A DNA stretch of 64,000 nt from an uncultured Clostridia bacterium (lineage in GTDB: Bacteria > Bacillota > Clostridia > Christensenellales > UBA1242), in NCBI GenBank assembly GCA_944381135.1, contig CALWJY010000013.1:39957-103956 (forward strand), written 5' to 3'. Below are positions 10,450-62,818 of this stretch, in pieces. Below the pieces are notes generated by a model that was not told the origin of the DNA, searched no databases, and worked only from the letters and a program-made list of their open reading frames with translations. The first letter of the stretch is position 1. Each line of letters opens with the position of its first letter. The translations under genes were made by a program, and so were the position numbers.

Positions 10450-10462
10450 GCGTCATTGACGC
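10450..10462. repeat. 13-bp covarying palindrome, copy 1
   Basis: GCGTC-ATT-GACGC. It is followed by TGTC and lies four bases beyond the 3' CCA of tRNA-Leu. Member of the dispersed palindrome family described in the findings. Confidence 0.75.
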
Positions 10463-10466
10463 TGTC

Positions 10467-10552
10467 TGGTGCGGATGGAGAGGGTCGAACTCTCACAGTG
10501 TTGCCACCACAGGTACCTGAAACCTGCGCGTCTGCCATTCCGCCACATCCGC
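10467..10552 (-). tRNA. tRNA-Leu (anticodon CAG)
   Basis: On the minus strand GCGGATG pairs with CATCCGC; anticodon stem CAGGT/ACCTG encloses TTCAGGT with anticodon CAG; a type II variable arm and AGAGTTCGACCCTCT T arm follow; ACCA is encoded. Reads CUG codons. Confidence 0.96.
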
Positions 10553-10576
10553 ATATATTAAGTTTTTGTTGTTCCA

Positions 10577-10700
10577 TGGCGGAATGGCAAATGTTTTCTG
10601 TTTAAAAACTTTTGTTTGCGCAGGTTTTGAAACCTACGCGTCTGCCACTGACACCCTTAAACAATGATGTTTTAAGGGAACCCGTCTCGCCACATCCGCA
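10577..10700. pseudogene. Scrambled, inverted tRNA-Leu remnants with an inserted hairpin
   Basis: On the minus strand 10700-10619 reads as the 5' end of tRNA-Leu (TGCGGATGTGGCG), then about 40 inserted bases containing CCCTTAAAACA/TGTTTAAGGG, then TGGCAGACGCG and AGGTTTCA of the D arm and anticodon arm. On the plus strand 10578-10589 (GGCGGAATGGCA) and 10619-10628 carry pieces of the same tRNA in the opposite direction. No intact acceptor, T arm or variable arm remains, so it is not a functional tRNA. Confidence 0.75.
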
Positions 10701-10898
10701 TTTTTCAACATGACGTTGAGTGATTGAATTGTGGTTGTTCTATGATTTAAGCAAAAATTTTTTAAGCAACATTTCAATCTGTCAACTCAAACATTTTAGC
10801 GTATTTTTCTTTTTTTGTCAATAAAAACCCCACTGATTTATGCTTTTTGTTGATTTATTCTTATTTTTGTGATAAACTTATTATGAATTTGAATTTGG
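10701..10898. other. AT-rich spacer before the GNAT gene
   Basis: No gene seen. A weak promoter candidate TTGTTG-17-TGATAA ends near 10875, about 40 bases before the GNAT start. Confidence 0.4.
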
Positions 10899-10916
10899 TT
10901 GAAATTAGGAGAAAGC

Positions 10917-11711
10917 ATGAATTTTGAGCATTACACTGAAATTTCTGAGATTTCTGGAAGAAACAGGCGTAAATTGAATGAGTTGGTGGAAGATTGCGGA
11001 ATTATTTATGACAAATCTTTGCCAGATTTGATTGATTCGACTGAAGACAAATCGGTGATTTGTGCTTTTGAAGACGATGAAATTTGTGGTTTTGCAACTT
11101 TGGAAGCGGATGATTTTTGCATAACTATTGACGAACTTTATGTTGATTCTGTCCACAGAAAACATGGCGTTGGAAAGGCACTTATGGAGCAAGCGAAAGA
11201 ATATGCGAAACAGAAAGGCATTCCAAAACTTGAACTTGCGGTTGGCATTGACAATTTGAAAGCAAGACATCTCTATGAAAAGTTGGGTTTTGTTTATGCC
11301 CGTCAAAACAGAAACAAGGTTGTGATGAGAAGCTTTGCTGATGAAAAGGTTATGCAGACGGCACAGGTGCTTTTTGAAATGAGCAAAAACATAGCCTCTC
11401 AAACAGATATGGACATTGGAAAAAATAAAACAGGAATTGACAAAAATAAATTTGAAAAAATTGATTTAAACCTTTTGGCTCACACAAATCAACTGCTTTC
11501 AGATTGTGAAGCAAATCCAGAAATTGACATCATAAAAAAAATCCAAACAGGGCATGTGAGTGAAGATGAAAAGAAAAGTTTTTCAGATGTGTTTTCATTG
11601 GAAGAATCTTTGAGAAAGCAGGTTGCGCTGAGTGCTGAGGCCTTTGAGTGTTTGGAAAGACAAGACGAAGTTTGCAAAAACATTGAAAATTTTGGCGCAA
11701 CGGTCTTGTGA
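10917..11711 (+). CDS. GNAT family N-acetyltransferase with uncharacterised C-terminal region
   Basis: ATG 10917 is chosen because AGGAGA sits five bases ahead; a TTG at 10899 lies upstream of that site. The 264-residue protein has a GNAT domain in about residues 1-145: strand ELYVDSVHRKHGVGKALMEQA carries the acetyl-CoA pyrophosphate loop (R/QxxGxG/A form, here RKHGVGKA), and NLKARHLYEKLGF is the typical C-terminal GNAT motif. Residues about 150-264 form a Lys/Asp-rich helical region with no recognised family. The acceptor is unknown. It precedes the RlmD-like gene by 51 bases and is probably cotranscribed with it. Confidence 0.85.
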   Translation: MNFEHYTEISEISGRNRRKLNELVEDCGIIYDKSLPDLIDSTEDKSVICAFEDDEICGFATLEADDFCITIDELYVDSVHRKHGVGKALMEQAKEYAKQKGIPKLELAVGIDNLKARHLYEKLGFVYARQNRNKVVMRSFADEKVMQTAQVLFEMSKNIASQTDMDIGKNKTGIDKNKFEKIDLNLLAHTNQLLSDCEANPEIDIIKKIQTGHVSEDEKKSFSDVFSLEESLRKQVALSAEAFECLERQDEVCKNIENFGATVL

Positions 11712-11762
11712 TTGAGATCTTAAAAAACAAGGTAAAAAAAAGAAAAATCGAAAAGAAAAAAT

Positions 11763-13070
11763 ATGAGAAAAGAAGAAAACAAATCAAGCAAAGAGTGTGT
11801 GGACATCTTTGATGTTTCATATGAGGGTGCAGGTGTCGGCAAAATTGGCGGACAGATTGTTTTTGTGCCTAAAACTTTGCCAGAAGAGCAAGTTGAAGTT
11901 GAAATTGTCAAAAGAAGCAAATCTTTTCTGAATGGCAGACTTTTGGGCGTGAAAGTCTCAAATCAACTCCGGATAGAACCAAAATGTCCATATTTTGAAA
12001 TGTGTGGAGGTTGTGATTTTCAGCACTGCGACAGAGAATATGAACTTTTTCTTAAGCAAAAAATCTTAAAGTCAGAACTTGCAAAAGTTGGTTTTTGTGG
12101 GGATGCCAAAATGAATGTGGCTCCACAGCGTTATGCCTACCGCAACAAAGTTAAGTTTGAAATTAAAGACGGAAAATTGGGGTATTTCAAGCCCAAAAGT
12201 CACGTCTTTTTTGAAGTGAAATTTTGTCCAATTGCATGTGAAGAAATCAATCAGATAATTCCAAAAATTGAGCAATTTTTGACTGAAAATCGATTGAAAT
12301 TTTTGAAGAACGTTTACATAAAGAAAGTTGATGGAAACATTGCAATTTGCTTTCTTTTTGACAAAAACGCAGAAAAGATGCAAAAAAATGTCAAAAATTT
12401 GTCAATTTTGGATGATTTTTTCGTATTTTTTGCCTATGGTGATGTTTTGGAAAGCAACAAAACAAAAGTTGAGACGCTTAAAACAAGAAAAAGTGGAAGC
12501 ACAAAACTGAGTCAAAATGTTTATGGGATGAATGTCTCAGTGGATGTTTCGGCGTTCAACCAAGTCAACGACGGCGTGGCAAAACTTCTTTATGACTTTG
12601 TTGTGGAAGAGACAAAAGGTTTGAGAGTTGTGAATGCTTATTCTGGGCAAGGGCTTTTGAGCGCGCTCATCTGTCAAAATGCAAAATTTGTGTATGGAAT
12701 TGAAGTACAAAGGTCGGCGCACGAGTCTGCTGAAGATTTGCGAAAAGAGTTGTGGAAAGATGAATTTCGCATGGAAAACATCTGTGGGCTTGTGGAAGAG
12801 GAACTTTCAAAAATTGTGTTGAGAGACAAGATTGACTGCATTGTGCTTGACCCGGCGCGTGAGGGGTGCAAAAGAGAGGTGCTTGAGGTGATTTTGCACT
12901 CCGGAATTGACAAAACAATTTATATTTCCTGCAATTTCTCGACCCTGACGAGAGACTTGAGGTTTTTGACACCAAATTTTGACATTGTTTCAGTGCAAAT
13001 TTTCGATATGTTTCCTTGCACAGCGAACCTTGAAACAGTTGTGGTTTTAAGACAAAAGAAAGAGATTTGA
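11763..13070 (+). CDS. rlmD: 23S rRNA (uracil-5-)-methyltransferase, RlmD/RumA type
   Basis: A 435-residue enzyme that methylates C5 of uridine in 23S rRNA with SAM. A TRAM-like RNA-binding domain (about 10-65) precedes a 4Fe-4S ligand set CPYFEMCGGC...C (Cys75, Cys81, Cys84, Cys89). The catalytic domain has DPAREGC and YISCNFSTLTRDL, where Cys390 is the nucleophile. Length and order match RlmD/RlmCD; which uridines are modified cannot be read from the sequence, and Gram-positive homologues may do two sites. The frame opens shortly after the GNAT gene and ends inside a terminator stem. Confidence 0.9.
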   Translation: MRKEENKSSKECVDIFDVSYEGAGVGKIGGQIVFVPKTLPEEQVEVEIVKRSKSFLNGRLLGVKVSNQLRIEPKCPYFEMCGGCDFQHCDREYELFLKQKILKSELAKVGFCGDAKMNVAPQRYAYRNKVKFEIKDGKLGYFKPKSHVFFEVKFCPIACEEINQIIPKIEQFLTENRLKFLKNVYIKKVDGNIAICFLFDKNAEKMQKNVKNLSILDDFFVFFAYGDVLESNKTKVETLKTRKSGSTKLSQNVYGMNVSVDVSAFNQVNDGVAKLLYDFVVEETKGLRVVNAYSGQGLLSALICQNAKFVYGIEVQRSAHESAEDLRKELWKDEFRMENICGLVEEELSKIVLRDKIDCIVLDPAREGCKREVLEVILHSGIDKTIYISCNFSTLTRDLRFLTPNFDIVSVQIFDMFPCTANLETVVVLRQKKEI

Positions 13071-13101
13071 GAGGATGTTTTGAGCCTTCTCAAATTTTTT
13101 A
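13066..13101 (+). terminator. Rho-independent terminator overlapping the rlmD stop codon
   Basis: TTTGAGAGG/CCTTCTCAAA (one bulge) followed by TTTTTT. The stop codon TGA lies in the left arm. Confidence 0.75.
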
Positions 13102-13180
13102 TTTTGCCATTTGGTTTTAAACAAATTTTGCTGTCATAAAATGATTTTATAAATATTTAAAAATATTTAACTATTTTTTG

Positions 13181-13209
13181 TTGACATGTTTTTGGGTTTG
13201 TGATATGAT
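13181..13209 (+). promoter_or_regulatory. Strong sigma-A promoter for the surface-protein pair
   Basis: TTGACA, 17-base spacer, TATGAT. Transcription would start near 13216, giving a leader of about 220 bases before the GTG at 13439. Confidence 0.85.
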
Positions 13210-50276: not shown

Positions 50277-50343
50277 GAAAAAATTGAAAATTTTGCAGTT
50301 TTTGTTTAAATGACATTATTCTTGCAAAAAAGAGGAGAGAAAA

Positions 50344-50772: not shown

Positions 50773-50903
50773 CCACCACCTTCATTGATGGTTTTTAGGG
50801 TTAAAAAATCAATTGCACTAAACGCATTCAAATTTGAATTCGTCAGGGCAAGTTAAAATTTGAAAATCAAAAAATTCGTGGCATTGCCACAAAGGAGAGA
50901 AAA

Positions 50904-51164: not shown

Positions 51165-51178
51165 GAGGAGAGTTTAAG

Positions 51179-51385
51179 ATGAAAAAAGACACACATCCAG
51201 CATATCATGAAGTGACTGTTGTTTGCGCTTGCGGAAACACATTCAAAACAGGTTCTTGCGTGAAAGGAGACACAATCAAAGTTGACATTTGCAACAAATG
51301 CCATCCTTTCTTCACTGGAAAGAAGAAAGTTGTTGACTCCAGCGGAACTGTTGAAAACTTCAAGAAAAAATATGGCTTGCAATAA
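51179..51385 (+). CDS. rpmE: 50S ribosomal protein L31, zinc-containing form
   Basis: A 68-residue protein starting 15 bases after rpsR with [39 protein letters not shown] and [14 protein letters not shown] mark L31. The CxC and CxxC ligands are present, so it is the zinc-binding (C+) type. It lies in the same transcript as rpsF-ssb-rpsR, before the terminator at 51376. Confidence 0.95.
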
Positions 51386-51402
51386 TTTGCAAGTTTTTTT
51401 TA
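51376..51402 (+). terminator. Terminator of the rpsF-rpmE operon
   Basis: CTTGCAA/TTGCAAG followed by eight T residues. The left arm includes the last rpmE codons. Confidence 0.85.
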
Positions 51403-51444
51403 TTTGAAAACGGTTGAGAGCAAAAATTTAATACAGTTGAAAAC

Positions 51445-51475
51445 AAAAAAACAGCCAAATTCTGACTGTTTTTGT
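51445..51475 (-). terminator. Terminator of the 217-residue protein gene
   Basis: On the minus strand AAAAACAG/CTGTTTTTTT with an 11-base loop; it could also back up rpmE in the other direction. Confidence 0.6.
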
Positions 51476-51548
51476 TTTGTCAAAAATTAATAAAGTTAGT
51501 TTTATCATCTAAATTTTAGAGATTCTTTCAACTTCAGAAAATTTTGTT

Positions 51549-52202
51549 CTATCTTTTAAGACCATTGTCTCCATCACTATTTGTCTTTCCATCTTCTTTT
51601 GGAGGAAATTCTGGGTGCATGTCAACTGAGCAATTTACAACGTAATTGTTTAATGCATTTAAATATTTCACATATTCGCGTGAAACACCATTTTGAAATT
51701 CTTGAATGTCTTTTTTCCCAATTGCATGATCTTTATCGTTTGCATATTCGACTGCATATTCAATTGTTTGAAAGTTTATTTCGTTTTCCAAAAGATCCTT
51801 AATTGGCTCGCCATTCTTTTCAAGGAGATAAAACGCTGGTGGCATATATAGGACACAGTTTGGAAGATCTTCAGCTTTCAAATCATATTTCTCTTTATGA
51901 ATTAAATCTCTGTGAGCCATCGTGACAATTTTCTTTGCACTTGCCTTTGAAATGTGCACAATAAAACAATCAATCAAGCTTTCTTCATCATATGTTGGGG
52001 AGTTAAATGTTGCAGAAAAGATGGCTTGGGTTCCTTCTTTGTTCATTTTTGAAAATTTGCATTTTCCATCTTTCAAAACTTCAATCCTGAAACCTTTGAA
52101 GATGCCTTCTGTGATTGTCATTGTGTCGGGGTCGACATTCATGTGGTCCAAAAATTCAAAAGAAAAATTGCTGTTAAACAAAGTGACATGTTTCTTTTTC
52201 AT
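51549..52202 (-). CDS. Uncharacterised 217-residue protein
   Basis: ATG 52202 follows AAAGGAG; a TTG in that site is rejected. A soluble protein: beta-rich N-terminal half (HVTLFNSNFSFEFLDHM... GIFKGFRIEVLKDGKCKF), helical C-terminal half, and a polar Pro/Asp/Asn tail. No signal peptide, membrane segment or known domain was recognised. It is monocistronic with a consensus promoter and its own terminator, divergent from the PrmC fusion gene. Confidence 0.72.
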   Translation of the reverse strand: MKKKHVTLFNSNFSFEFLDHMNVDPDTMTITEGIFKGFRIEVLKDGKCKFSKMNKEGTQAIFSATFNSPTYDEESLIDCFIVHISKASAKKIVTMAHRDLIHKEKYDLKAEDLPNCVLYMPPAFYLLEKNGEPIKDLLENEINFQTIEYAVEYANDKDHAIGKKDIQEFQNGVSREYVKYLNALNNYVVNCSVDMHPEFPPKEDGKTNSDGDNGLKR

Positions 52203-52235
52203 ATCTAAATCTCCTTTCAATATATGAACGCAATT

Positions 52236-52264
52236 ATTATATCACAAAAACACCTTTTTGTCAA
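52236..52264 (-). promoter_or_regulatory. Consensus promoter of the 217-residue protein gene
   Basis: Minus strand TTGACA, 17-base spacer, TATAAT. Its -35 box is nine bases from the presumed start of the opposite gene. Confidence 0.88.
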
Positions 52265-52272
52265 GATTAAAA

Positions 52273-54009
52273 ATGGACTTGGACGGCAATAATTATTTCA
52301 TGTTTAAAATTGTCTTTCCAACTTCAAATGGGGTTGTGGTGCAAAGTGGTGAGAAAAAGGTGATTTCTGTCACAAATTGTGATGGTCAGAAGAAACTTAA
52401 AAGTTTTCTTGACAAAAACAAAATCATCTTTTGGCATTTTCCATTTATGCGTGGAATACAATATTTTCTCTGCGGAATTTATGCTCAGTTTTGCGCTTTG
52501 ATTATGTGTGCAGACCTGTGCGGAACAAAGCAAAAGGTCAAAGAGAGCAAATTGAAAAAATATTACACCAAAAAACTTATCATTTTGGTTTTGGTTGCGG
52601 TGGGCGCGGTGATTTTTGCAAGTGTTGGTCTTGGGGTTGCACCGGGAAAGTTGGGCTATCTTTTGGTGGACTATCATGGAAGCACAATTTTAAGAAACTT
52701 TGTGATTATGTTGTTAAAAATTGCATTTTTTTATGTTTTTTTGCTTTTTTTGCGTGTTTTTCCTTCTGTTTGCGAGTTTTTTCGCTTCAATCGTGCCGGA
52801 GATGTTGCATTTTTTGGTGGAAATTCAGTGAAGAACAAGAGAAAATGTCCTGCAAGACCACTTAATTTTTTGAATTTCGTCATTTTTGTTTTTGTTTTGG
52901 ACTTTGCTGTGATATCATTATGTGGAGCAAGTTTTGGTTTTTGGTTTAACCTTCTGTTTCATGTGGCAATTCTTTTGTTGTGTATGAGTGTTGGCTTTGA
53001 AATTTTAAACCTTTTGGAAAAGTGCAAAATTGCATGGATTAAGAATTTGGCATATGTCACGGCGGGGCTTGTCTATGCCAAACCGTCCACCACTCACATT
53101 GAGACGGCATTGGTTGCATTCACAGAACTTGGCTTGCTTGAAAATCAAAAAGGAAGAGAGTTTATGAGTGACGAAAGTCGGGCTTTTTCTGTGGTGTATA
53201 ACGAGGTGAAAAACAAACTTGCCTCTGCGGGTGTCAACGACAAAAGCGAAACTGATTGGCTTATTGCCACGGTTTTGGGCAAAAATCGCGCAGAAATCAA
53301 GTTGGTTTCCACCATAACTGAAAGGCAATATCAAGACATCATGAAAGCCACAGCGCGCAGAGCCAAAGGTGAAAGTTTGGACAACATTTTTGGGTTCACC
53401 GAATTTTATGGGTTGACGTTTGATGTCAACAAGAAAGTGCTGACGCCAAGAATGGAAACCGAAATTTTGGTGGAACAAGTGCTTAAATGCGCAAAAAACT
53501 TTAAAAATCCAACCATTTTGGACTTGGGAACAGGTTCCGGAGCAATTGCTGTGGCTGTGGCAAAAAATTGTGATGCGGAGGTGACGGCAATTGACATCAG
53601 TAAAAACGCACTTGCAACTGCGGAAGAAAATGCCAGAAAAAATGGTGTAAAAATTGAATTTTTGCATTCAAATTTGTTTGACGGCTTGAAAAGAAAGAGA
53701 AAGTTTGATATAATAGTTTCAAATCCGCCATACATTGCAAGTGAAGACATAAAGGGACTTGACAAAAATGTGCGAGAGTGTGACCCAATTCTTGCTTTAG
53801 ACGGCGGTGAGGATGGTTTGGATTTCTATCGTTCAATCATTCCAACTTCAACAAAAAGGCTGAATGCTGGAGGAAAGCTTTTCTTGGAAATTGGCAAGGG
53901 GCAAGGACGAGATGTCCGAAAAATTATGAGAGAGTGCGGATTTGATGAAATCAAGACAATCAAAGACTATAACAAAATTGAAAGGGTGATTTGTGGAAAA
54001 TATAAGTAA
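52273..54009 (+). CDS. prmC: DUF1385 membrane domain fused to release-factor glutamine methyltransferase PrmC
   Basis: A protein of about 578 residues. Residues 1-285 resemble DUF1385 (YqhQ-like): a SNGVVVQSGEKK start, FPFMRGIQYF, then four or so membrane segments. Residues about 290-578 are PrmC/HemK: a helical N-terminal domain (SETDWLIATVLGKNRAEI), SAM motif LDLGTGSGAIAVAVA near 414, and NPPY with Asn484. PrmC methylates the Gln of the GGQ motif in RF1/RF2, and prfA overlaps its end by 17 bases. The two domains are usually separate adjacent genes. ATG 52273 is the first ATG but has no clear ribosome site, so the start is uncertain. Confidence 0.85.
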   Translation: MDLDGNNYFMFKIVFPTSNGVVVQSGEKKVISVTNCDGQKKLKSFLDKNKIIFWHFPFMRGIQYFLCGIYAQFCALIMCADLCGTKQKVKESKLKKYYTKKLIILVLVAVGAVIFASVGLGVAPGKLGYLLVDYHGSTILRNFVIMLLKIAFFYVFLLFLRVFPSVCEFFRFNRAGDVAFFGGNSVKNKRKCPARPLNFLNFVIFVFVLDFAVISLCGASFGFWFNLLFHVAILLLCMSVGFEILNLLEKCKIAWIKNLAYVTAGLVYAKPSTTHIETALVAFTELGLLENQKGREFMSDESRAFSVVYNEVKNKLASAGVNDKSETDWLIATVLGKNRAEIKLVSTITERQYQDIMKATARRAKGESLDNIFGFTEFYGLTFDVNKKVLTPRMETEILVEQVLKCAKNFKNPTILDLGTGSGAIAVAVAKNCDAEVTAIDISKNALATAEENARKNGVKIEFLHSNLFDGLKRKRKFDIIVSNPPYIASEDIKGLDKNVRECDPILALDGGEDGLDFYRSIIPTSTKRLNAGGKLFLEIGKGQGRDVRKIMRECGFDEIKTIKDYNKIERVICGKYK

Positions 54010-55078
54010 AGAACTTTTGCAAAAGACGGAAAAATCTAAGGTCAGGTTTGACGAACTGACCAATCTTATTTCACGCCCTGAGGTGATTGCGGACAACAGA
54101 GAGTGGAAAAAACTTGTCAAAGAGAGAAATGGGCTTGAAGATTTGGCAAATGCGCATGAAAAATTGGGAGAGTTGATTGAAAATTATGAAAACTGCCAAA
54201 AAGATTTGAGTAAAGAAACTGATCCGGAAATGAAAGCGCTTTTTGAGACGGAAATTGCAGATTTAGACGAAAAAATTGAGCAAAAAACAGAAGAAATTAA
54301 AATTTTGCTTCTTCCAAAAGATGAAAACGATGAAAGCAATGCAATTTTGGAAATTCGATCGGCGGCAGGTGGAGAGGAAAGTGCCTTGTTTTGTATGGAA
54401 CTTTGCAGGATGTATTCTCACTATGCAGAAAAGAAGCATTGGAGAGTGGAATACATTGACATGTCTGAAACAGAAATTGGCGGTGTGAAAGAAGCCACAA
54501 TCATGGTGAAAGGAAAGGGGGTGTATGCGCGTCTTAAATATGAAAGTGGTGTGCACCGCGTGCAAAGGGTGCCAGAGACGGAAAGTCAGGGACGCATTCA
54601 CACCTCAACTGCCACCGTTGCGGTTTTGCCTGAAGTTGAAGATGTTGATTTTGAAATTCTGGACAAGGACTTGCGAATTGATACATATCATTCGGGCGGT
54701 GCAGGAGGACAGAATGTCAACAAGGTGGAAACTGCCATTCGCATAACATATCTTCCGCTTAACATTGTTGTCACATGTCAAGATGAGAGGTCTCAACTTA
54801 AAAACAAAGAAAAAGCCATGAACATTCTGAAAGCAAAACTTTATGACTATTATGAAGAGCAGAGAAGAAGCACACTTGAAGCCGACCGCAAAAGCCAAGT
54901 TGGAAGAGGAAATCGAAACGAACGCATCAGGACATACAACTATCCTCAAGGCCGTGTGACAGATCACCGTACAAACCTTTCTTCATATGATTTGGAGGGT
55001 GTTTTGGAAGGAGACATAGACCAATTTATTGACGCCATGATTTTGAAAGAGCGCACAGAAATGCTTGCAAAAGCATAA
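53993..55078 (+). CDS. prfA: Peptide chain release factor 1
   Basis: A 361-residue class I release factor starting with GTG after AAAGGGTG. It recognises UAA and UAG. The GGQ loop is SGGAGGQNVNK with Gln240, the substrate of PrmC encoded just upstream. The codon-recognition PxT tripeptide reads PET in RVPETESQGRIHTSTATVAVLPE, and the RF1-type hydrophobic signature supports RF1 over RF2. Overlap with prmC implies coupled translation. Confidence 0.95.
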   Translation: MENISKELLQKTEKSKVRFDELTNLISRPEVIADNREWKKLVKERNGLEDLANAHEKLGELIENYENCQKDLSKETDPEMKALFETEIADLDEKIEQKTEEIKILLLPKDENDESNAILEIRSAAGGEESALFCMELCRMYSHYAEKKHWRVEYIDMSETEIGGVKEATIMVKGKGVYARLKYESGVHRVQRVPETESQGRIHTSTATVAVLPEVEDVDFEILDKDLRIDTYHSGGAGGQNVNKVETAIRITYLPLNIVVTCQDERSQLKNKEKAMNILKAKLYDYYEEQRRSTLEADRKSQVGRGNRNERIRTYNYPQGRVTDHRTNLSSYDLEGVLEGDIDQFIDAMILKERTEMLAKA

Positions 55079-55543
55079 TTGTCTTGAAAATTAAATTTTA
55101 TAGAAAAAATAATAAAAACAAAAAACAATAAAAAACAAGTAAAAAATATGCAAAAATTATGAAAAAACAAATAAAAAATTAAAAAAAACAATAGAAAATA
55201 AATTAATTTAATAAAAAATAATTCCAAATTAATATTTTATTTTTTATGTTGTGTTTAATGGCTAAATTATTTAAAATTTAAGAAAAATGAACAAAAAAAG
55301 AAAAAACAACTAAATAAATCAAAAAAAACACCTAAAAGGTGTTTTTTAATTATCTTTTGATGGTTTTTATTGAATAAAATGCCGATTTTTCTTTTTAATA
55401 TTCAACAATTTGTTTAAAAATTAAAAAATTGAATCTTTTAATTATTTTTCTTAATTTTTATTTTATTTTTCATTAAAATTTAATTCATTTTGTCAAATTT
55501 AAAACAAAATGATTTCAATTTGTTTAGAATTAATTTCAGGAAA
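55079..55543. other. Extremely A-rich spacer with a terminator
   Basis: From about 55085 to 55320 the plus strand is nearly all A and T with long A runs on the plus strand. No gene is seen. The only clear structure is the terminator at 55323. Confidence 0.6.
55323..55348. terminator. Rho-independent terminator
   Basis: AAAAAACACCT/AGGTGTTTTTT with an AAA loop; symmetric enough to serve prfA and the small minus-strand gene. Confidence 0.85.
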
Positions 55544-55714
55544 TTATACAAAATTTTGGAAGCAACGGCATCCCGATGTGTTCACAAAGTTGTTGTTTGT
55601 GTTTGATAAGCCAAGCAAAAGCAGAAGTAAGATGTTTGTGTTTGTTGCAAGGTTTGTGTCATTTGCAGAACTCAAAACCGACAGCAAAAACACCCATAAA
55701 AAGTCTGATGTCAT
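55544..55714 (-). CDS. Small hydrophobic protein with CRC motif
   Basis: A 56-residue frame supported by a perfect AAAGGAGG seven bases before its ATG. The N-terminus is hydrophobic (FLWVFLLSVL), the centre has a six-Leu run followed by Gly and an Asn-rich stretch, and the end carries SGCRCFQ. Small Leu-rich, Asn-rich, Cys-ending proteins are common but uncharacterised in Clostridia, some linked to spore coats. Too short for routine gene calling. The opposite strand has an open frame of 99 codons but without a ribosome site. Confidence 0.6.
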   Translation of the reverse strand: MTSDFLWVFLLSVLSSANDTNLATNTNILLLLLLGLSNTNNNFVNTSGCRCFQNFV

Positions 55715-55886
55715 AGATTTTCCTCCTTTTTCAACAAATTCTTACATTTTTAGTGCAAAAGGAAAAAATTTTCCTTTGACTTTTCTTCTTTTGTTTGGCA
55801 AAATATGAATATCGATGTTGACTATTTTTATTTATGTCAGAAAAAACATTTGTGTGACAAAAAGAAAACATGAAAGAGGTGAAACA

Positions 55887-56222
55887 ATGAACAAACTTTT
55901 AAGGATAAGTGAAAGAAACAAGTTTGAAATGCAAGACTTGCTTCCAAGCGATGACTGCACAAATAAGCTGGCGCTCTATTTTCAAAATTTTTCAGACCAA
56001 ACAAGATTGAAAATTCTGTCTGCGCTTTCCATCAAAGATTTGTGCGTCAATGACTTGTCAAAAATTTTGAACATAAATCAAACCACAATTTCACATCAAC
56101 TGAAAACTTTGAAAGACCAAGATGTTGTGGACTATCGGCGCGAGGGCAAAATTTTGATTTATCGCATCAAGTCTCCAATTGTCAACGAGATGATGAACTA
56201 TGCAGTCAAAACCTTGGGTTGA
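55887..56222 (+). CDS. ArsR/SmtB family transcription regulator
   Basis: ATG 55887 follows AAAGAGGTG. The 111-residue winged-helix protein has DQTRLKILSALSIKDLCVNDLSKILNINQTTISHQLKTLKDQDVVDYRREGKILIYRI, the full ArsR DNA-binding fold. The usual metal site ELCVCDL is reduced to DLCVNDL, so the alpha-3 Cys pair is lost; any metal would use other residues. ArsR proteins repress adjacent operons, but the next gene, queH, has its own promoter and is not an obvious target. Confidence 0.85.
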   Translation: MNKLLRISERNKFEMQDLLPSDDCTNKLALYFQNFSDQTRLKILSALSIKDLCVNDLSKILNINQTTISHQLKTLKDQDVVDYRREGKILIYRIKSPIVNEMMNYAVKTLG

Positions 56223-56302
56223 TTTTGATTTCGCGACTTTGAAGCAAAAATATTTAAAAGAAGATTTAATTTTCGCTATCTTTGTCAAAACCATTGTATG
56301 AC

Positions 56303-56331
56303 TTGACAAAATGGTTTGTTTAATATAAAAT
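56303..56331 (+). promoter_or_regulatory. Promoter giving a near-leaderless queH mRNA
   Basis: TTGACA, 17-base spacer, TAAAAT; the last -10 base is nine bases before ATG 56341, so the transcript would begin about at the start codon. No ribosome site is present. Confidence 0.6.
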
Positions 56332-56340
56332 ATCATCATT

Positions 56341-56907
56341 ATGAAAAAGTTGCTTTTGCATTCTTGTTGTGGTCCATGTTCCACAGTTGTGATTGAAAGG
56401 TTGCGCGAAAGATTTGACGTGACCGTGTTTTATTATAATCCAAACATCGAGCCATATGAAGAATATGAAAAGCGAAAAGAGGAACAAAAGAAAGTTTGCC
56501 AATTTTTTGATATTCCTTTCATAGATTGCGACTATGAAAATGAAAAGTGGAGAGATTTTGTCTGCGGTCTTGAAAACGAGCTTGAGGGTGGTGCTCGCTG
56601 TGAAAAGTGTTTCCTTTGTCGCTTAAAAAAGACGGCAGAATATGCAAAACTTCACAATTTTGACATTTTTGCCGCAACACTTTCAGTCAGTCCTCACAAA
56701 AACACTGAAGTCATAAACAAAGTGGGAGAAAGTTTGAGTTTGGAAACGGGAGTGGAATTTTTGCCAGAAAGTTTCAAGAAGAAAGATGGATATTTACGAA
56801 GCATAAATCTTTCCAAAGAACTTGAACTCTACAGGCAAAACTATTGCGGTTGTTTGTTTGCGCTTAGAGCATTTGAAAACAAAAAATCTCAAAAAGTTGA
56901 GTCTTGA
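56341..56907 (+). CDS. queH: Epoxyqueuosine reductase QueH
   Basis: A 188-residue enzyme of the last queuosine step, reducing epoxyqueuosine to queuosine in tRNA, the non-orthologous replacement of QueG. HSCCGPCS (Cys9, Cys10, Cys13) and CEKCFLCR (Cys87, Cys90, Cys93) bind the iron-sulfur cluster and metal; YNPNIEPYEEYEKRKEEQ is the family phrase. Length is normal. The start lies just after a promoter, see the preceding entry. No other queuosine genes are in the window. Confidence 0.93.
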   Translation: MKKLLLHSCCGPCSTVVIERLRERFDVTVFYYNPNIEPYEEYEKRKEEQKKVCQFFDIPFIDCDYENEKWRDFVCGLENELEGGARCEKCFLCRLKKTAEYAKLHNFDIFAATLSVSPHKNTEVINKVGESLSLETGVEFLPESFKKKDGYLRSINLSKELELYRQNYCGCLFALRAFENKKSQKVES

Positions 56908-56965
56908 TTGCAAGATTGCAAAATGCGGAAAAATGTGCTAAAAAATTTAATTTTTGGAGAAGAAT

Positions 56966-57874
56966 TTGAAAGATTTTAATGATGAAGATTTCATTAGATA
57001 TAGTGACAAGAAAGTCAAGGAAGAGACGCACAACCTTGCTTTCTATCTTGCCACGCGAATTTCGTTTTACATCATTTTGCTTTTCTTTGCAATTTTCTTT
57101 TGTTGGTACACAGTCTTTGTCAGCACTCACAGTTTTTATGCTGTTTCTGGTCCATCCATGATGTCCACCTTAAATGGAGACATCACAGACGAGATGTTGC
57201 ACACGGAGGATGTCAGCGATGTTTCATATGACGCCGTATATGTTGACAGATTCACAAGTCCAAAAATTTTTGACATCATTGTTGTTTCGCGCCCCGGCAC
57301 AACAAGCATTGTGAAAAGGCTGATGGCAACGGCTGGAGACTATGTCACAATTGCCAAAACAAGCGATGCTGATGGAGGAGAGCATTTTGTGTTCTATCGC
57401 ATTCCAAATGGTTCCGATTTAACCACTTTCACAGATGAAGATGCAGAGGTTGACGAGTTGAGTGGTGCGAATGGCTATTCAATCTACAGTGCTGAAGATT
57501 GGAATGCTGAAAGGTCGACATACAGCATTAATGTTGACGGATTTTCAGATTTTTCCTATGAAGATAACTTTTTCTACACATTTTTGGCAGATTTCTTCAT
57601 TGGACAAGAAAGCGGGAATGGAGATTATGAATATGAATTTGAATATCACGTTTCTTCTCAAGGACTTGTCTATGTGAGAGTGCCTGAAGGGCAGTTTTTC
57701 TATATGGGCGACAATCGCGGACACAGCACAGACGCGCGCGAAAATGGTTTTATGAATGTGGACAACATTGTGGGAAGAGCGGAATTTATTGTCTATGACT
57801 ATAATTTCGGCAACAGACTTTGGGAGGTCATCAAGTTCTATTTCCGAGAAATCGAGAAATTTTTTGCAAGATAG
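56966..57874 (+). CDS. lepB: Signal peptidase I
   Basis: The start is taken as TTG 56966, five bases after GGAGA; a TTG at 56954 overlaps the site. The 302-residue enzyme cleaves signal peptides of secreted proteins. One membrane span (about 30-55) precedes SGPSMMSTL with catalytic Ser64; the general base Lys117 is in SIVKRLMATAGD; FYMGDNRGHSTDAREN is the third signature. An acidic, Tyr-rich insertion of about 80 residues (about 140-220) enlarges the beta domain relative to typical Gram-positive SipS. Confidence 0.92.
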   Translation: MKDFNDEDFIRYSDKKVKEETHNLAFYLATRISFYIILLFFAIFFCWYTVFVSTHSFYAVSGPSMMSTLNGDITDEMLHTEDVSDVSYDAVYVDRFTSPKIFDIIVVSRPGTTSIVKRLMATAGDYVTIAKTSDADGGEHFVFYRIPNGSDLTTFTDEDAEVDELSGANGYSIYSAEDWNAERSTYSINVDGFSDFSYEDNFFYTFLADFFIGQESGNGDYEYEFEYHVSSQGLVYVRVPEGQFFYMGDNRGHSTDARENGFMNVDNIVGRAEFIVYDYNFGNRLWEVIKFYFREIEKFFAR

Positions 57875-57884
57875 GCAATTTTGT

Positions 57885-57914
57885 TTGCAAAATATTGATG
57901 TTTTGTGGTATGAT
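57885..57914 (+). promoter_or_regulatory. Promoter of the HU gene
   Basis: TTGCAA, 18-base spacer, TATGAT; 48 bases before ATG 57963. Confidence 0.65.
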
Positions 57915-57962
57915 GAAAGTAGCATAAATAAATGCAAAAACATCATCAAAAGGAGAATTATT

Positions 57963-58238
57963 ATGAATAAAGGTGAGTTCATTAAGGCAGTTGCTGAAAC
58001 AGCAAATTGCACACAGAAAGACGCTGGCGTTGTGTTTGATGCAATCATTGACACAATTGTAAGCGAACTTAAAAAAGGAGAGAAAATTCAAATTCCTGGA
58101 TTTGGTTCTTTTGAAATTGTTTCAAAACCAGCAACAACAAAAATCAATCCTTTGACAAAGAAGCCTGTTAAGGTTGCTGCGTGCAAAGCACCTAAATTCA
58201 AATTTGGCAAAAGCTTCAAAGCTCAATTCAATGCCTAA
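57963..58238 (+). CDS. hup: DNA-binding protein HU
   Basis: A 91-residue nucleoid protein with AAAAGGAG before ATG. MNKGEFIKAVAE, FDAIIDTIVSELKKGEKIQIPGFGSFEI and INPLTKKPVKV match HU. The beta-arm is slightly altered: the usual ARxGRNPxTG reads TTKINPLTKK, with intact Pro for DNA intercalation. Own promoter and bidirectional terminator. Confidence 0.96.
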   Translation: MNKGEFIKAVAETANCTQKDAGVVFDAIIDTIVSELKKGEKIQIPGFGSFEIVSKPATTKINPLTKKPVKVAACKAPKFKFGKSFKAQFNA

Positions 58239-58264
58239 TTTGGTTTGAAAATTCATCTTATCAA

Positions 58265-58295
58265 AAAAACATCATCTTTTGATGATGTTTTTGTC
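58265..58295. terminator. Bidirectional terminator between HU and rubrerythrin
   Basis: AAAAACATCATC/GATGATGTTTTT with a TTTT loop, flanked by A and T runs. Confidence 0.88.
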
Positions 58296-58317
58296 TTTTT
58301 TATTTGCAAATTTCAAA

Positions 58318-58923
58318 TTATTCGTGTTGGTCCTGAAGTTCTTTTTCAAAATCAATGATGACGTAGCCTTGTGGCATGTTGCACAGAGGACATTCTTTAA
58401 ATCCGTCTTTTGAAATTGAAACATATCCGCAATTTGAGCATTTCCATTCTGTTGGCGTGTCGCGTCGATACATTTTCCTTTTGGAATAGAGAGAGGCAAG
58501 ATATTTCAAGATTTGGTGGTGAGTTGCTTCCACATTTGCCACCATTTCAAAAGATTTGGCAATGTCGGCAAAGCCCTCATCTTTTGCAATGCGGGCAAAA
58601 CTTGGATATATGTTGTTGGCTTCGGCCTCTTCAATTTTGCTTTCTTCCAACAGACTGCTTTCAAGTTTTGGTTCGTCAAAAGGAAAGCCTGCCTCAATTG
58701 AGATGTTTTTGACACTTCCACCGCTATTGTTTAGAATGTGGTCATAGAAAACTTTGGCGTGTGCCATCTCATTCTTTGCCAGCGTTTTCATGGTGTCAGA
58801 CAAGAATTTTTGTTGGTCTTGAAGAGCCATTTTTGACATAAATTGATATCTTGCTCCTGCTTGGCATTCAGCTGAAAAAGAACGCGCAAGATTTGTTTTT
58901 GTCACACTTTCGTTAAAATCCAT
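58318..58923 (-). CDS. rbr: Rubrerythrin
   Basis: A 201-residue peroxide-reducing non-heme iron protein of anaerobes; AAAAGGAG precedes ATG. The ferritin-like domain supplies diiron ligands in ECQAGARYQF, NEMAHAKVFYDH, EEAEANNIYPSF and VEATHHQIL. The C-terminal rubredoxin-like domain has WKCSNCGYVSISKDGFKECPLCNMPQGY with two CxxC pairs. Suggests an obligate anaerobe coping with oxidative stress. Confidence 0.94.
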   Translation of the reverse strand: MDFNESVTKTNLARSFSAECQAGARYQFMSKMALQDQQKFLSDTMKTLAKNEMAHAKVFYDHILNNSGGSVKNISIEAGFPFDEPKLESSLLEESKIEEAEANNIYPSFARIAKDEGFADIAKSFEMVANVEATHHQILKYLASLYSKRKMYRRDTPTEWKCSNCGYVSISKDGFKECPLCNMPQGYVIIDFEKELQDQHE

Positions 58924-59007
58924 GTTTAGAATCTCCTTTTAAATTTTTTGATTGATACACATCTTAATATTGACTTAAATATTCCTTTTAAAACATTTGC
59001 TTTTTTT

Positions 59008-59036
59008 TTGTTTTTTGTTTAGAATAATATTATAAT
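59008..59036 (+). promoter_or_regulatory. Promoter of the CYTH-like gene
   Basis: TTGTTT, 17-base spacer, TATAAT; about 47 bases before ATG 59084. Confidence 0.5.
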
Positions 59037-59083
59037 TAATTTGACAATGCCTAAGATGGACTTAAGACAATTGAGGAGAGGTT

Positions 59084-59887
59084 ATGTTTATTGGAGATAA
59101 GGGAAAACCAAACAAATTCCACAGTGTGCGAAGAAATTATGACATTGTCATTGACAATGAAAAATTCACTTTGCAGAAATTGATGACAAGGCTTGGGTTT
59201 TATACAATCATAAATCAAGGCAAATTCAAGGAAACTGAAATTGTCTATGACACCGAACGCAAACTTTTGAGTGGTGCAGGCTTGATTTTGCGAAAAAAAA
59301 TCACTGCAAAGAGGGTCTATTTTTCGCTTGTCAGGATAAGTTCCATGAGTAATGTTGAAAACCGAGAGAAAAAATCTTTTCTTGGTGAGTGCGAAGAAAA
59401 AGACCAGCCAAGCGATTTTCCTGTGCAAATTGCCACGGAAATCAACCGCATTTTCAACAATGTTTTCACAATTGACTTAGTTGATGTGGTGAAGCACAGT
59501 TCGCCATACATTAAATATGAAATTGTTGGCAATAAATATAAAATTGTCAGCGGAACAGGTTATGAGGCAGAAATTTCGTTTGAAACCTTAAAAATCAAGG
59601 ATTTACGCACTGGTGTCAGAGCAAAAAAACGCAATTTTTCATTAAAAATGGAGATTGACCCAAACTATGCAAAGGAAAGAGAGCAAATTCTTTACACAAT
59701 TGAAAGGTGGTGCAAAGAACTTGTGTTTGTCAACCGAAACCGATTTGAAATTGCTGAAGTTGCAGTGAGGATCCCTGAAGTTAAAGAAGAAGACGGAAAG
59801 AAAGGTTCAAACGCAGATCAAAATAAGAAAAGAAAAAGCAGAAAAGAAATCAAACAAGAGTTGGAGCAAAATCAAGAAGGGGCATAA
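59084..59887 (+). CDS. Possible CYTH-like domain protein
   Basis: A 267-residue soluble protein with GAGGAGAGG before ATG. Residues about 28-75 (LMTRLGFYTIINQGKFKETEIVYDTERKLLSGAGLILRKKI) resemble the Y-DT-x-L-x-LR core of CYTH triphosphatases or their polyphosphate-binding relatives, but the N-terminal ExExK metal motif is missing or altered. A second half has alternating strands with many Lys/Arg, and the tail (about 235-267) is a Lys/Glu-rich disordered stretch. The assignment is tentative; an unknown family is equally possible. Confidence 0.6.
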   Translation: MFIGDKGKPNKFHSVRRNYDIVIDNEKFTLQKLMTRLGFYTIINQGKFKETEIVYDTERKLLSGAGLILRKKITAKRVYFSLVRISSMSNVENREKKSFLGECEEKDQPSDFPVQIATEINRIFNNVFTIDLVDVVKHSSPYIKYEIVGNKYKIVSGTGYEAEISFETLKIKDLRTGVRAKKRNFSLKMEIDPNYAKEREQILYTIERWCKELVFVNRNRFEIAEVAVRIPEVKEEDGKKGSNADQNKKRKSRKEIKQELEQNQEGA

Positions 59888-59900
59888 ATTGCCTCTTTTT
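59876..59900 (+). terminator. Probable terminator of the CYTH-like gene
   Basis: GGCA/TGCC stem with flanking G-T/A-T extension, followed by CTCTTTTTT. Overlaps the stop codon. Confidence 0.55.
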
Positions 59901-60117
59901 TATTTTTGTTTTTTGGTGAAAAAAGTTTCTTTTTGTGCCGATTTAAGTTAAAAACATTCAATTTCAACAGATTTGTTTTTTTTGCAAAATTTAAACCAAT
60001 TTTTCAAGCAAATCCATTCAATTCTTCAAACAAAGTTTTGCTTTTTTAAATTAAAATTGAAATCAAATTCGTGGTTTTGAAAGCATAAAGTTTCTGCTTG
60101 TCCGCATAAAATGTAGG

Positions 60118-61710
60118 GTGAAGAAAAAGCAAAAATTGAATTTCAGCACAAAACTTTGTTATGGAATGGGGAATTTGGGATATGGCTCCATGGGACAGAC
60201 TGTCTCAAGTTTCATCATGTTTTTTGGGACAAGCGTGCTTGGCATACCTGGCATTTTGGTGGGCATTACAATTGCAATCACTTCACTTTGGGACGGGCTT
60301 TCGGACCCGTTGATTGGCTATCTTTCCGACCGCACGCGAAGCAAGCGTTTCGGCAGGAGGCTTGGGCACATGATTTTTGCAAGTTTTGCGCTTGCAATCA
60401 ACAACATATTGCTTTGGTCTTGCCCAATTTCTGACAACAATGCGGTGATGATTTTGTGGCTTTTGGTCTTTCTGCTTTTGCAGGAGACATTCAACACATT
60501 TTTTGCAACTCCATATTCCGCTCTTTGCATCGACATTGCACCGGACTATAACGACCAAACAAAAATGCAGGGGTTTAAAACAGTTTTCTACATCATGGGG
60601 TTGATTATGCCAAGCATTTTAATGTATTCTTTCATGCCGGCAGGCTCGGGAATTGGCACACAAGCACAATTTGACAAACAAGGCTACATCAACATCGCGC
60701 TTGTCAACTCGGCTTTGGTTTTGATTTGTGGTTTTGCCACCATAATTGGAACGCGTAAGCGCGTCCGCTCAATGCCGAACTATGATGAAGCATTGATTGA
60801 AAACGAAAGTGCTCAAGAAATGTTGCCAGAAAACGCAACTGAAAATAAAAACATAATTGAAGAAAAATTTGAAAAAGATGAAAAAGTTGAAAAAACAGCA
60901 AAAAATGGCGAAAAAACAAGAGGAAATCGCAAAAAAACAAGGAAAAACAAGTCAAACAAGAAGAAAAGTTTAAGTTTGATTATGGCTGGCTATGTTGAAA
61001 CATTCAAGAAAAAAGATTTTCGTTGTGTCATGCTTGGATATTCCGTCTCTCTCATTGCATCTGTTTTCATCACATCCGTGGGCATGCATCTTTTCACTTT
61101 TTGCTATCACTTTTCCAGCGTGCAGATTTCCACTCTCATGATTTGCCTTTTTGGCGGGGCAATTCTTTCGCAACTTTTGTGGGTTAATGTTGTCAAAGAG
61201 TATGACAAAAAACAGACGCTCATTTTTGCGCTTTGTGTCATGCTTTTTGGAATTGCCATGACAAGCATAACTTTTCTTTTCAGAACTTACACCACTCCAA
61301 ATGTCATTTTTTGGTATGTTTTGCCTTGCCTTTTCATTTGCGGAATTGGCTCGGGCGCGCTCTATTCTCTTCCGCATTCCATGTATGCAGATGTTGTCAC
61401 AATGGAACAATACAAAACAGGCACAAACAATGCGGGAAGATATACGGGATATTACACTTTCACCTACAATTTTTCAAACTCAATCGCACTTCTTTTCATT
61501 GGACTTTTACTTGATTTGGTGAAGTTTGACTCTTCTCAGCCTGTTCAAGCGCTTTCGGTGCAGACAGGGCTTGGGCGTATCGTCTTTTTCGGAAGCGCCA
61601 TTGCTCTGACCATTGCCATTTTGATTTTTTCAAAATATTCCATCAAGCGTTCGGATGTTTTGAAAGTGCAAATCAAGGCACATGAAAATGAAGAAAAACA
61701 ACAGCCATAG
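60118..61710 (+). CDS. GPH/MelB-type sugar-cation symporter (MFS)
   Basis: A 530-residue transporter with about 12 membrane segments. KLCYGMGNLGYGSMGQ at the N-terminus and WDGLSDPLIGYLSDRTRSKRFGRRLGHMIF form the family's helix 2 and loop 2-3 signature with the cation-site Asp. The C-terminal half shows YADVVTMEQYKTGTNNAGRYTGYYTF. A central loop of about 75 residues (about 220-290), rich in Lys, Glu and Asn, is longer than in MelB. Glycosides or uronides are likely substrates. GTG start without a good ribosome site, so the start is uncertain. Confidence 0.85.
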   Translation: MKKKQKLNFSTKLCYGMGNLGYGSMGQTVSSFIMFFGTSVLGIPGILVGITIAITSLWDGLSDPLIGYLSDRTRSKRFGRRLGHMIFASFALAINNILLWSCPISDNNAVMILWLLVFLLLQETFNTFFATPYSALCIDIAPDYNDQTKMQGFKTVFYIMGLIMPSILMYSFMPAGSGIGTQAQFDKQGYINIALVNSALVLICGFATIIGTRKRVRSMPNYDEALIENESAQEMLPENATENKNIIEEKFEKDEKVEKTAKNGEKTRGNRKKTRKNKSNKKKSLSLIMAGYVETFKKKDFRCVMLGYSVSLIASVFITSVGMHLFTFCYHFSSVQISTLMICLFGGAILSQLLWVNVVKEYDKKQTLIFALCVMLFGIAMTSITFLFRTYTTPNVIFWYVLPCLFICGIGSGALYSLPHSMYADVVTMEQYKTGTNNAGRYTGYYTFTYNFSNSIALLFIGLLLDLVKFDSSQPVQALSVQTGLGRIVFFGSAIALTIAILIFSKYSIKRSDVLKVQIKAHENEEKQQP

Positions 61711-61814
61711 TGCAGTTGTTTTTTTGAAATGTCTTTGAAGTGAATGGGCAGAAAATGAAAGACTGTATTACGAATGCCCTGAATATTTTTTGTTAAACTA
61801 TTTAAACTAAAATC

Positions 61815-62336
61815 ATGAAAAAGATTTTCAAATTTGTCTTGATTTTTGTTTTGTGCGTTTTTCCAACATTGTTTTTGGGAGGTTGTGGAGGAAAAGAACT
61901 TTCGTCTGCCACAATCACAAGAGACGATGCGCGCACGGGCGGAAGTTTAAGTTTTGTCTATGACAAGAATTTGCGAACAATTCAGATTGGCGGAGAAGGT
62001 GAAGTGGTGCAATATTCTTCCGAAAATTTGGGCAAGGGCATTGAAGAAGGGTGCAGAGTTGGTCTCAAAGTGACGGCGCCAGACGAAAGTCTCAATTTGG
62101 AAAATGCCACACTTGAGATGAATGGCGTGCACTATTCCTCCGGCGATTTTTTGGAAACAATCAATGGACAAAAACAACGCTTTTTCAACATCTATCCTCT
62201 TGTTTCTGAAAACGATGAAAAAATTAAGTTTATTGTTTGCTGGGAGGATGGAACAAAAGAGCAAGAATATGAAATCATCATCATGGACGGCACGCGTTTC
62301 ATGAACAAAGATGGCTCTGTCAGCGAGAGTCAGTGA
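61815..62336 (+). CDS. Small lipoprotein of unknown function
   Basis: A 173-residue protein with a lipoprotein signal MKKIFKFVLIFVLCVFPTLF then LGGC at about Cys24. The mature part is acidic and beta-rich. No family recognised. No ribosome site is visible before ATG; a TAAAAT box lies one base upstream, so the mRNA could be leaderless or the start may be further in. Its last codons (DGSVSESQ) run into a repeat palindrome that supplies the stop codon, so the original C-terminus may have been altered. Confidence 0.72.
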   Translation: MKKIFKFVLIFVLCVFPTLFLGGCGGKELSSATITRDDARTGGSLSFVYDKNLRTIQIGGEGEVVQYSSENLGKGIEEGCRVGLKVTAPDESLNLENATLEMNGVHYSSGDFLETINGQKQRFFNIYPLVSENDEKIKFIVCWEDGTKEQEYEIIIMDGTRFMNKDGSVSESQ

Positions 62337-62339
62337 CTC
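62327..62339. repeat. 13-bp palindrome, copy 9, overlapping a stop codon
   Basis: GAGTC-AGT-GACTC; the TGA within it (62334-62336) ends the lipoprotein gene. Confidence 0.75.
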
Positions 62340-62382
62340 TTTCTATTTTTTCACATTTTATGCAGCCCTATATAAACGACTC

Positions 62383-62469
62383 GTCATTCTGAGCCGACAT
62401 CGTTAGATGTCGTGTCGAAGAATCTCAGAGACCCTTCGACTACGCTCAGGATGACGGCATCATTGATGC
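62383..62469. repeat. Inverted repeat element followed by palindrome copy 10
   Basis: Left arm 62383-62426 with inner hairpin GACATC/GATGTC; right arm 62428-62458; arms nearly touch. It runs into GCATC-ATT-GATGC at 62457-62469. Confidence 0.85.
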
Positions 62470-62519
62470 GTTTTATTTTTTACATTTTGTTTTTTACACT
62501 CTTGTCTTTTAAACAGAAA

Positions 62520-62532
62520 GCGTCATGGACGC
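62520..62532. repeat. 13-bp palindrome, copy 11
   Basis: GCGTC-ATG-GACGC followed by TGTC, like copy 1. Confidence 0.75.
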
Positions 62533-62564
62533 TGTCAAATCTCAAACTCTTAATCATTCAAATT

Positions 62565-62637
62565 GTCATTCTGAGCCGACTTTTGAGATTGGTGTGAGAG
62601 AATAAAAAAGACATCAAAAGTCGCGTCGAAGAATCTC
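62565..62637. repeat. Left-arm repeat with enlarged inner hairpin
   Basis: GTCATTCTGAGCC ... GTCGAAGAATCTC with inner GACTTTTGA/TCAAAAGTC separated by 29 bases. A diverged inverse arm follows at 62651-62676. Confidence 0.8.
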
Positions 62638-62650
62638 GTTTTTTCTTTAT

Positions 62651-62676
62651 GGTTCTTCCACTTCGGTAAGAATGAC
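62651..62676. repeat. Diverged right-arm repeat
   Basis: Inverse of the arm: the minus strand reads GTCATTCTTACCGAAGTGGAAGAACC-like sequence, changed at several sites. Confidence 0.55.
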
Positions 62677-62694
62677 ATTCGGCAACAATTCTTC

Positions 62695-62734
62695 GTCATT
62701 CTGAGCCAGCCGACAGGCTGTGTCGAAGAATCTC
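62695..62734. repeat. Left-arm repeat with a third inner hairpin
   Basis: GTCATTCTGAGC then CAGCC/GGCTG hairpin then TGTCGAAGAATCTC. Confidence 0.82.
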
Positions 62735-62773
62735 AAAAAATTTATTTTTAATAACAACCGCTCCACATAAAAA

Positions 62774-62818
62774 GTGTCGTTGACACTTGAGCCCCTTCGA
62801 CTACGCTCAGGGTGACGG
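62774..62818. repeat. Palindrome copy 12 followed by a right arm
   Basis: GTGTC-GTT-GACAC at 62774-62786, then TTGAGCCCCTTCGACTACGC and CTCAGGGTGACGG. Confidence 0.8.

Follow-up and report, generated by a model that had tools for sequence, protein, structure and literature searches.

What are the short palindromes scattered between the genes of a Clostridia genome, and why do the two arms of their stems change together? The question arises from a 64,000-nucleotide stretch of an uncultured Clostridia bacterium (contig CALWJY010000013.1, positions 39,957 to 103,956; hereafter, the window), in which a first-pass annotation had noticed at least twelve sites of a 13-bp hairpin, which we abbreviate to H. 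All ten full palindromes and both shortened copies that it listed are present. Our preferred reading, to which we give a probability of about 60%, is that H is a small family resembling repetitive extragenic palindromes (REPs), that part of its copies stand at the edges of mosaic elements, and that its clusters multiply and enlarge as DNA fold-backs.

The window comes from a 1.19-Mb draft genome (98.5% complete), and copies were counted in a 464,000-base sample comprising the window and 20 further stretches, several of them picked for holding GCGTC matches (L plus a number denotes a DNA stretch, and G plus a number a genome). Genes were called by script as the longest open reading frames (ORFs), with uncertain starts. 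An unbiased count of every 5-3-5 palindrome ranked GCGTC (24), GTGGC (8), GCATC (8), GGGTC (5), and GTGTC (5) as the most enriched intergenic arms, each against an expectation of at most 0.02 from a first-order Markov model that treated ORFs and gaps of the sample separately and did not involve whole-genome shuffles. Palindromes with arms ending in TC numbered 47 between genes, where 7.5 were expected, and 34 within ORFs, where 40.2 were expected. A frequency no higher than chance, or an equal density inside genes, had been named as grounds for abandoning the family; under this model neither was seen, and the hairpins are confirmed as real, far more frequent than chance, and mainly intergenic. 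Their placement between genes or at a gene end thus stands in the main, with the copy at 62327 overlapping the 3' end of an ORF. The form first proposed (NNNTC, three bases, GANNN) fits the sites and is too loose as a rule, as 11 further sites among the 21 perfect NNNTCNNNGANNN palindromes of the window have AT-richer arms without an initial G. Eleven tried stem words gave 57 intergenic copies, counted, like the neighbor pairs and gene orientations below, after removal of ORFs under 130 codons that contain repeat words. Across the whole genome, GYRKCNNNGMYRC occurs at 85 places and the reversed pattern at 15; by our own count, 40 are fully paired among the 50 listed of those 85.

H consists of a G-N-N-N-C stem closed by three loop bases, in most cases AGT, AAT, or CAT, and of a one-sided T-rich flank (TTTCTATTT), by which we orient it and which is absent from the first-pass annotation. 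The stem-loop measures 13 bp and reaches ~20-22 bp only when the tail is counted. The tail side is unclear in 15 of the 57 hairpins, and loop and flanks were analyzed in 30 hairpins with a strict one-sided tail. Within this set, AGT occurs 15 times, AAT 5 times, CAT 4 times, and six other loops once each; the reverse complements ACT and ATG are absent, and ATT appears once. The loops are accordingly not free to vary, as had been supposed: because AGT dominates and is combined with six stem words, the loop is conserved and oriented and it is the stem that changes, in pairs. The tail-side foot reads TTTYTRT, some of whose letters were fixed by the selection of sites. On the opposite foot, neither GTAG nor CGTC is among the 12 commonest 5-mers; CGTC is present within the GCGTC stem itself.

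Stem covariation is strong. It was assessed genome-wide by a search that fixed only G, C, G, and C of the stem and the T-rich tail, and 22 of the 25 sites found were fully paired, with seven stem words (GCGTC, GCATC, GTGTC, GTGGC, GGGTC, GAGTC, and GCGAC); in 24 relatives, 3 of 22 sites were fully paired (the paired ones counted by eye). In the 23 distinct sequences, 95.7% of cells pair and 16 cells are changed on both sides. The covariation score of 0.432 compares with 0.132 for shuffled sequences, none of 500 shuffles scored as high, and sliding by 1-3 columns gave 0.017 to 0.228. The number of pairs with a two-sided change (three) is not unusual, being reached by 191 of the 500 shuffles. 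The matched changes noticed at first are borne out by the score, and the supposed constancy of the inner TC/GA pairs is not, since pair 4 occurs as T-A, G-C, and A-T; pairs 1 and 5 are invariant because the search fixed them, and this set makes no statement on their constancy.

A second whole-genome anchor, GTCATTCTGAG followed by G...C...G...C, found 10 sites here: 7 are fully paired (5 GCGTC and 2 GTGGC), and each of the other 3 has a single imperfect pair. Among 295 further genomes of the order, three contained such sites, 12 in all. One of the three, G229, has two of them, both fully paired and with GCACC as a new stem; a third copy there, after the same left flank, reads GGCACT-TT-AGTGCC, an independent hint of covarying stems within fixed flanks. 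In this genome, which belongs to another genus of the family, the stems GCACC and GCACT occur in GTCATTCTGAG-hairpin-CGTGAGAATCTC repeats of L181 (1500-2200). In addition, a CACAC-type hairpin array in L027 (1020-1235) has neighboring copies with an A-T, a mismatched, or a G-C second pair and forms a natural series of intermediates.

Near H lies a second repeat, GTCATTCTGAG...GAAGAATCTC, and some copies of H have a mosaic context. More specifically, 17 of the 57 hairpins abut a REP-like module (with up to 2 mismatches), as against 16 of 5000 random intergenic places, and a module end (GTCATTCTGAG, GATTCTTCGACA, CTCAGGGTGACG, or close forms) makes up the foot opposite the tail in some copies. 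Module A starts with CGTC (21/31), TGTC (8/31), or AGTC (2/31; by eye), then AT. By eye, the GTCATTCTGAG...GTCGAAGAATCTC modules have variable central hairpins of their own (CGACATC, CAGCC, CACGAGC, and CGACTTTTGA). The four copies of module A in the window (Table 1) share their outer arms and differ in the central hairpin (CGACATC, CGACTTTTGA, AGCC), and they amount to another, larger collection of interchangeable hairpins within this genome.

Copies of H also occur together. The 18 oriented neighbor pairs less than 450 bp apart comprise 5 of type ++, 6 of +-, 7 of --, and none of -+. In three clusters (by eye; L029 3187/3459, L032 9094/9238, and L033 10541/10774, the latter two with small differences), two inward-facing H have as their outer feet the two ends of one module A; in L031 (1447/1844), the feet are instead two degraded inverted copies of one module end. 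The remaining clusters have neither arrangement. Both partners have the same stem word in 4 of the 6 inward pairs of adjacent copies, where chance would give 0.23 per pair; these are too few for a claim. Irrespective of orientation, 9 of 18 adjacent pairs agree, for which local duplication could be responsible. Some clusters contain long inverted repeats: the one at 48798-49044, with 35-nt arms, falls within the size range of miniature inverted-repeat transposable elements (MITEs; 70-300 bp), and module content varies between clusters. The fold of 48795-49047 reaches -107.4 kcal/mol (z = -10.9, or -8.5 with 25 shuffles), and z is -5.5 for L032 9083-9262 and -3.9 for the gap beside ychF. Eleven clusters folded with 25 shuffles each gave z from -9.6 to -1.4, with some H pairing with a partner H and others locally.

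Two arrangements of neighboring copies are recorded here in their own right. In L033 (9151-9458), four GGGTC hairpins are spaced 94-106 bp apart, with spacers 1 and 3 similar, like a duplicated unit bounded by hairpins. In L039 (16703-16760 and 18609-18650), hairpin and half-hairpin units with differing stem words are joined end to end, as if units had been added at the foot of older ones.

Table 1. H copies, REP-like modules, and the long inverted repeat in the window
Feature	Position	Strand
H GCGTC/GACGC, tail TTTTTATTTT, 4 nt 3' of tRNA-Leu (10467-10552)	10450-10462	-
Shortened H copy GTGTCACTGACA, between ychF and small RNase III-domain gene	38490-38501	
H GCGTC/GACGC	38502-38514	
H GTGTC/GACAC	38575-38587	
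H GCGTC/GACGC, adjoining ychF stop; none in this gap in nine relatives	38597-38609	
Long inverted repeat, left arm (80% complementary to 49010-49044)	48798-48832	
H GCATC/GATGC, tail rightward	48808-48820	+
REP-like module A (GTCATTCTGAG-central hairpin-GTCGAAGAATCTC)	48863-48906	+
REP-like module B (GAGACCCTTCGACTTCGCTCAGGGTGAC), minimal center	48925-48952	-
Long inverted repeat, right arm	49010-49044	
H GCATC/GATGC, tail leftward	49022-49034	-
Shortened H copy CGTCAATGACGC, directly after the preceding hairpin	49035-49046	
H GAGTC/GACTC, then TTTCTATTTTTT, overlaps ORF 3' end	62327-62339	+
REP-like module A	62383-62426	+
REP-like module B	62428-62455	-
H GCATC/GATGC	62457-62469	+
H GCGTC/GACGC	62520-62532	-
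REP-like module A, long central hairpin	62565-62637	+
REP-like module A, short central hairpin (AGCC/GGCT)	62695-62734	+
H GTGTC/GACAC	62774-62786	-
REP-like module B	62789-62816	-

The copy number of H exceeds that in relatives, and since these carry few or no copies, the expansion is largely specific to this lineage. The YchF protein of this genome is closest to those of uncultured Clostridia metagenome-assembled genomes (best, 83%, SVIR01000003.1; Candidatus Caccopulliclostridium, 71%). In whole-genome searches, GCGTCANTGACGC was found 15 times here, 3 times each in G001 and G010, once in G022, and not at all in the other 21 of 24 genus relatives; 16 genomes of other families gave three single matches (L040-L042), and neither these nor the G022 match (L043) have a module or tail within 50 bases on either side. 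Counted in any place, family words reach 63 in the 464 kb sampled here, compared with 11 in G001 (384 kb) and 5 in G010 (354 kb), densities that are biased as the stretches were partly chosen for known matches. Some palindromes in the relatives (L170 10125 in G010 and L155 625 in G001) look like coding DNA for a GDG-NDAP motif, which we take to be that of P-type ATPases. A 103-bp unit with H matched 21 places here, in many cases through its module part alone. It had 5 matches in G173 and 1 in G329, and the remaining 58 genus genomes searched had none. At the four G173 loci examined, the modules are B-like or A-like and the family stem words are absent; one of these loci, L206, has a GACAC/GTGTC hairpin inside an A-like module. 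The gap between ychF and the RNase III-domain gene holds three full hairpins in 143 bp here, and no such hairpin was found in that gap (-3 to 568 bp) in nine relatives. A plasmid search with window positions 62327-62900 gave no match, and viral contigs gave one match, with no module in the stretch examined.

Is H, then, a REP? The first-pass annotation knew of no REP or MITE family with such a rule; in fact, alternative complementary stem residues are already described for REPs by Di Nocera et al. (2013; PMC3733652), where most GTAG families have subfamilies of this kind and CGTC families are as heterogeneous. As described there, GTAG REPs and the mosaic elements that they form are, like H, short intergenic palindromes with short loops, which make inverted dimers and clusters and prefer unidirectional and convergent gaps; they measure 20-40 bp, and H has neither that size nor the GTAG tag. 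The CGTC-tagged REPs of that survey, whose tag varies to TGTC, apparently have no dedicated transposase. To this superfamily, including Rickettsia RPE-4/RPE-6 and Neisseria dRS3, the likeness concerns the neighboring module A (CGTC/TGTC, then AT) and not H, and CGTC REPs have 8-9 bp stems with loops of 4-5 bases, whereas module A has ATTCT/AGAAT and a separate variable central hairpin. The survey names five phyla as CGTC hosts, Firmicutes not among them, and that word is absent from its main text. It also reports REPs inserted within palindromes (T. roseum GTAG-23, A. variabilis GTAG-15, and H. neapolitanus CGTC-1); the small GC palindromes associated with GTAG-23, with 3-4 base loops and degenerate complementary arms, resemble H. 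In those species, the REP lies inside the palindrome, whereas here separate small palindromes stand at the edges of some clusters. The hairpin elements reported from sponge mitochondria (PMC2800124) likewise multiply between genes and insert in tandem, and there stems are conserved while loops differ, the reverse of H, which keeps loop and flank. No paper describing H was found by title or abstract in the open-access literature, and matches to four module strings look, by title, like chance. Collectively, H is high-copy, mainly extragenic, variable in complementary stem residues, and found in inverted dimers and clusters; it lacks the 20-40 bp size, an unpaired GTAG or CGTC foot, and a REP-associated tyrosine transposase (RAYT; Y1_Tnp) in its genome. 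Because tag, size, and transposase all differ, we withhold the name REP from H, which nevertheless works like one, and class it as a REP-like variant of an established kind of repeat.

Selection on the hairpin, or a process copying one arm onto the other, was proposed at the outset and would explain dispersed, mainly intergenic palindromes with covarying stems. Some copies of H mark a mosaic edge: opposite the tail lies an end of the GTCATTCTGAG...GAAGAATCTC repeat, and beyond the tail come an AT-rich linker, more REP-like modules, and at times a second, inverted H. As for how the family spreads and why its stems covary, we infer the following. Clusters would spread and grow as DNA fold-backs, with new units inserted or copied at older palindromes. 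The stem would be kept as structure, and loop and flank as sequence, if unpaired copies fail to spread or are selected against, possibly helped by the copying of one arm onto the other during replication.

Several observations weigh against this reading. Neither a target-site duplication nor an empty site was demonstrated, in an analysis that did not search close strains for empty sites. The REP-associated transposase that the first-pass annotation advised looking for was not found, PF01797 (Y1_Tnp, RAYT-type) having no match in the draft genome in a search that was positive in 5 of 14 control genomes and was not extended to other transposase families. Forty of the 57 hairpins abut no module, and H stands without modules at L032 13891, in the ychF gap, and at three sites in G001. 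Of the 10 copies at the GTCATTCTGAG junction, 3 are imperfectly paired, as against 2 that are fully paired with a stem other than GCGTC. The outer feet of 62327/62774 and of L032 8924/9365 are not two ends of one module, partner hairpins often have different stem words, and in several clusters H folds locally rather than with its partner; L038 reaches a z of only -1.4.

Among other explanations, H might be a compact intrinsic terminator (a 5-bp stem plus a U-rich tail) multiplied through its usefulness, which we regard as rather unlikely. The T-rich flank is one-sided, as it would be in a terminator, and the tails of the copies at 10450, after tRNA-Leu, and at 62327, at an ORF end, point downstream. 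Once six sites inside ORFs and one at a stretch edge had been excluded, the 56 gap sites comprised 34 tandem, 16 convergent, and 6 divergent ones; from intergenic length alone (47.9, 11.2, and 9.3 kb, respectively), ~9 convergent sites would be expected. The six divergent sites speak against termination, as do the strong-tail sites in tandem gaps, 13 co-oriented with the genes and 11 opposed, a balance on which we rejected a directional terminator as the general role while single sites (10450, 62327) fit. Moreover, the isolated AGT-loop stems are weak (-3.5 to -5.8 kcal/mol in six tried), and because other terminator-like sites in 44001-64000 mostly have unrelated stems, termination alone does not explain the shared words.

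Equally improbable, in our judgment, is that template switching during replication of imperfect palindromes renews the stems by arm-to-arm copying, with no selection on the hairpin. Homogenization of short inverted repeats is reported in PMC8604942, the tail-anchored set has 15 fully paired stems other than GCGTC as against one family site with a single mismatch, and A-T, mismatched, and G-C versions lie side by side in the L027 array. Such copying leaves the multiplication, the shared loop, and the shared flank unexplained, and imperfect and compensated copies are equally common at the GTCATTCTGAG junction. There is also no sign of loop inversion (AGT 15/ACT 0, CAT 4/ATG 0, AAT 5/ATT 1), a weak argument because spacer inversion, as described in PMC8604942, was seen only with arms longer than 9 bp.

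Very unlikely, we believe, is that selection at the RNA level acts on H as an RNA element, either an mRNA stabilizer or a structure close to ribosome-binding sites. By eye, hairpins lie just 5' of Shine-Dalgarno-like sites in several places: GGGTC copies at L021 10752 and L036 2524; GTGGCATTGCCAC at window positions 50878-50890, before a small ORF resembling ribosomal protein S18; and the last of three hairpins just before a gene resembling rpsM in G001. Selection on RNA should give mismatches a strand preference, and none is clear in the one-mismatch hairpins with a tail, which on the tail strand have 13 G-U, 9 A-C, and 6 other mismatches, some probably due to chance; this counts against an RNA role. 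Rfam models run over the window returned only three tRNAs at gathering score and no match for H. Finally, a transcription-factor operator was rejected on the argument that many stem words, one loop, and an asymmetric T flank are unlike a symmetric site.

No known principle is overturned by the H family. It may, at a stretch, represent a mobile or self-renewing class of repeats whose stem persists purely as structure and whose loop and flank persist as sequence, and in which new hairpin-bounded units enter the centers of older palindromes to give nested fold-backs without a dedicated transposase; we think this wider view unlikely. In the REP survey (PMC3733652), no Firmicutes are named as CGTC hosts, and how REPs spread without a dedicated transposase is left open there. 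In the present family, stem, loop, tail, and neighboring module are separable, and intermediate stems are found among the copies of a single small genome, so that selection on structure and arm-to-arm copying could be told apart with strain data.

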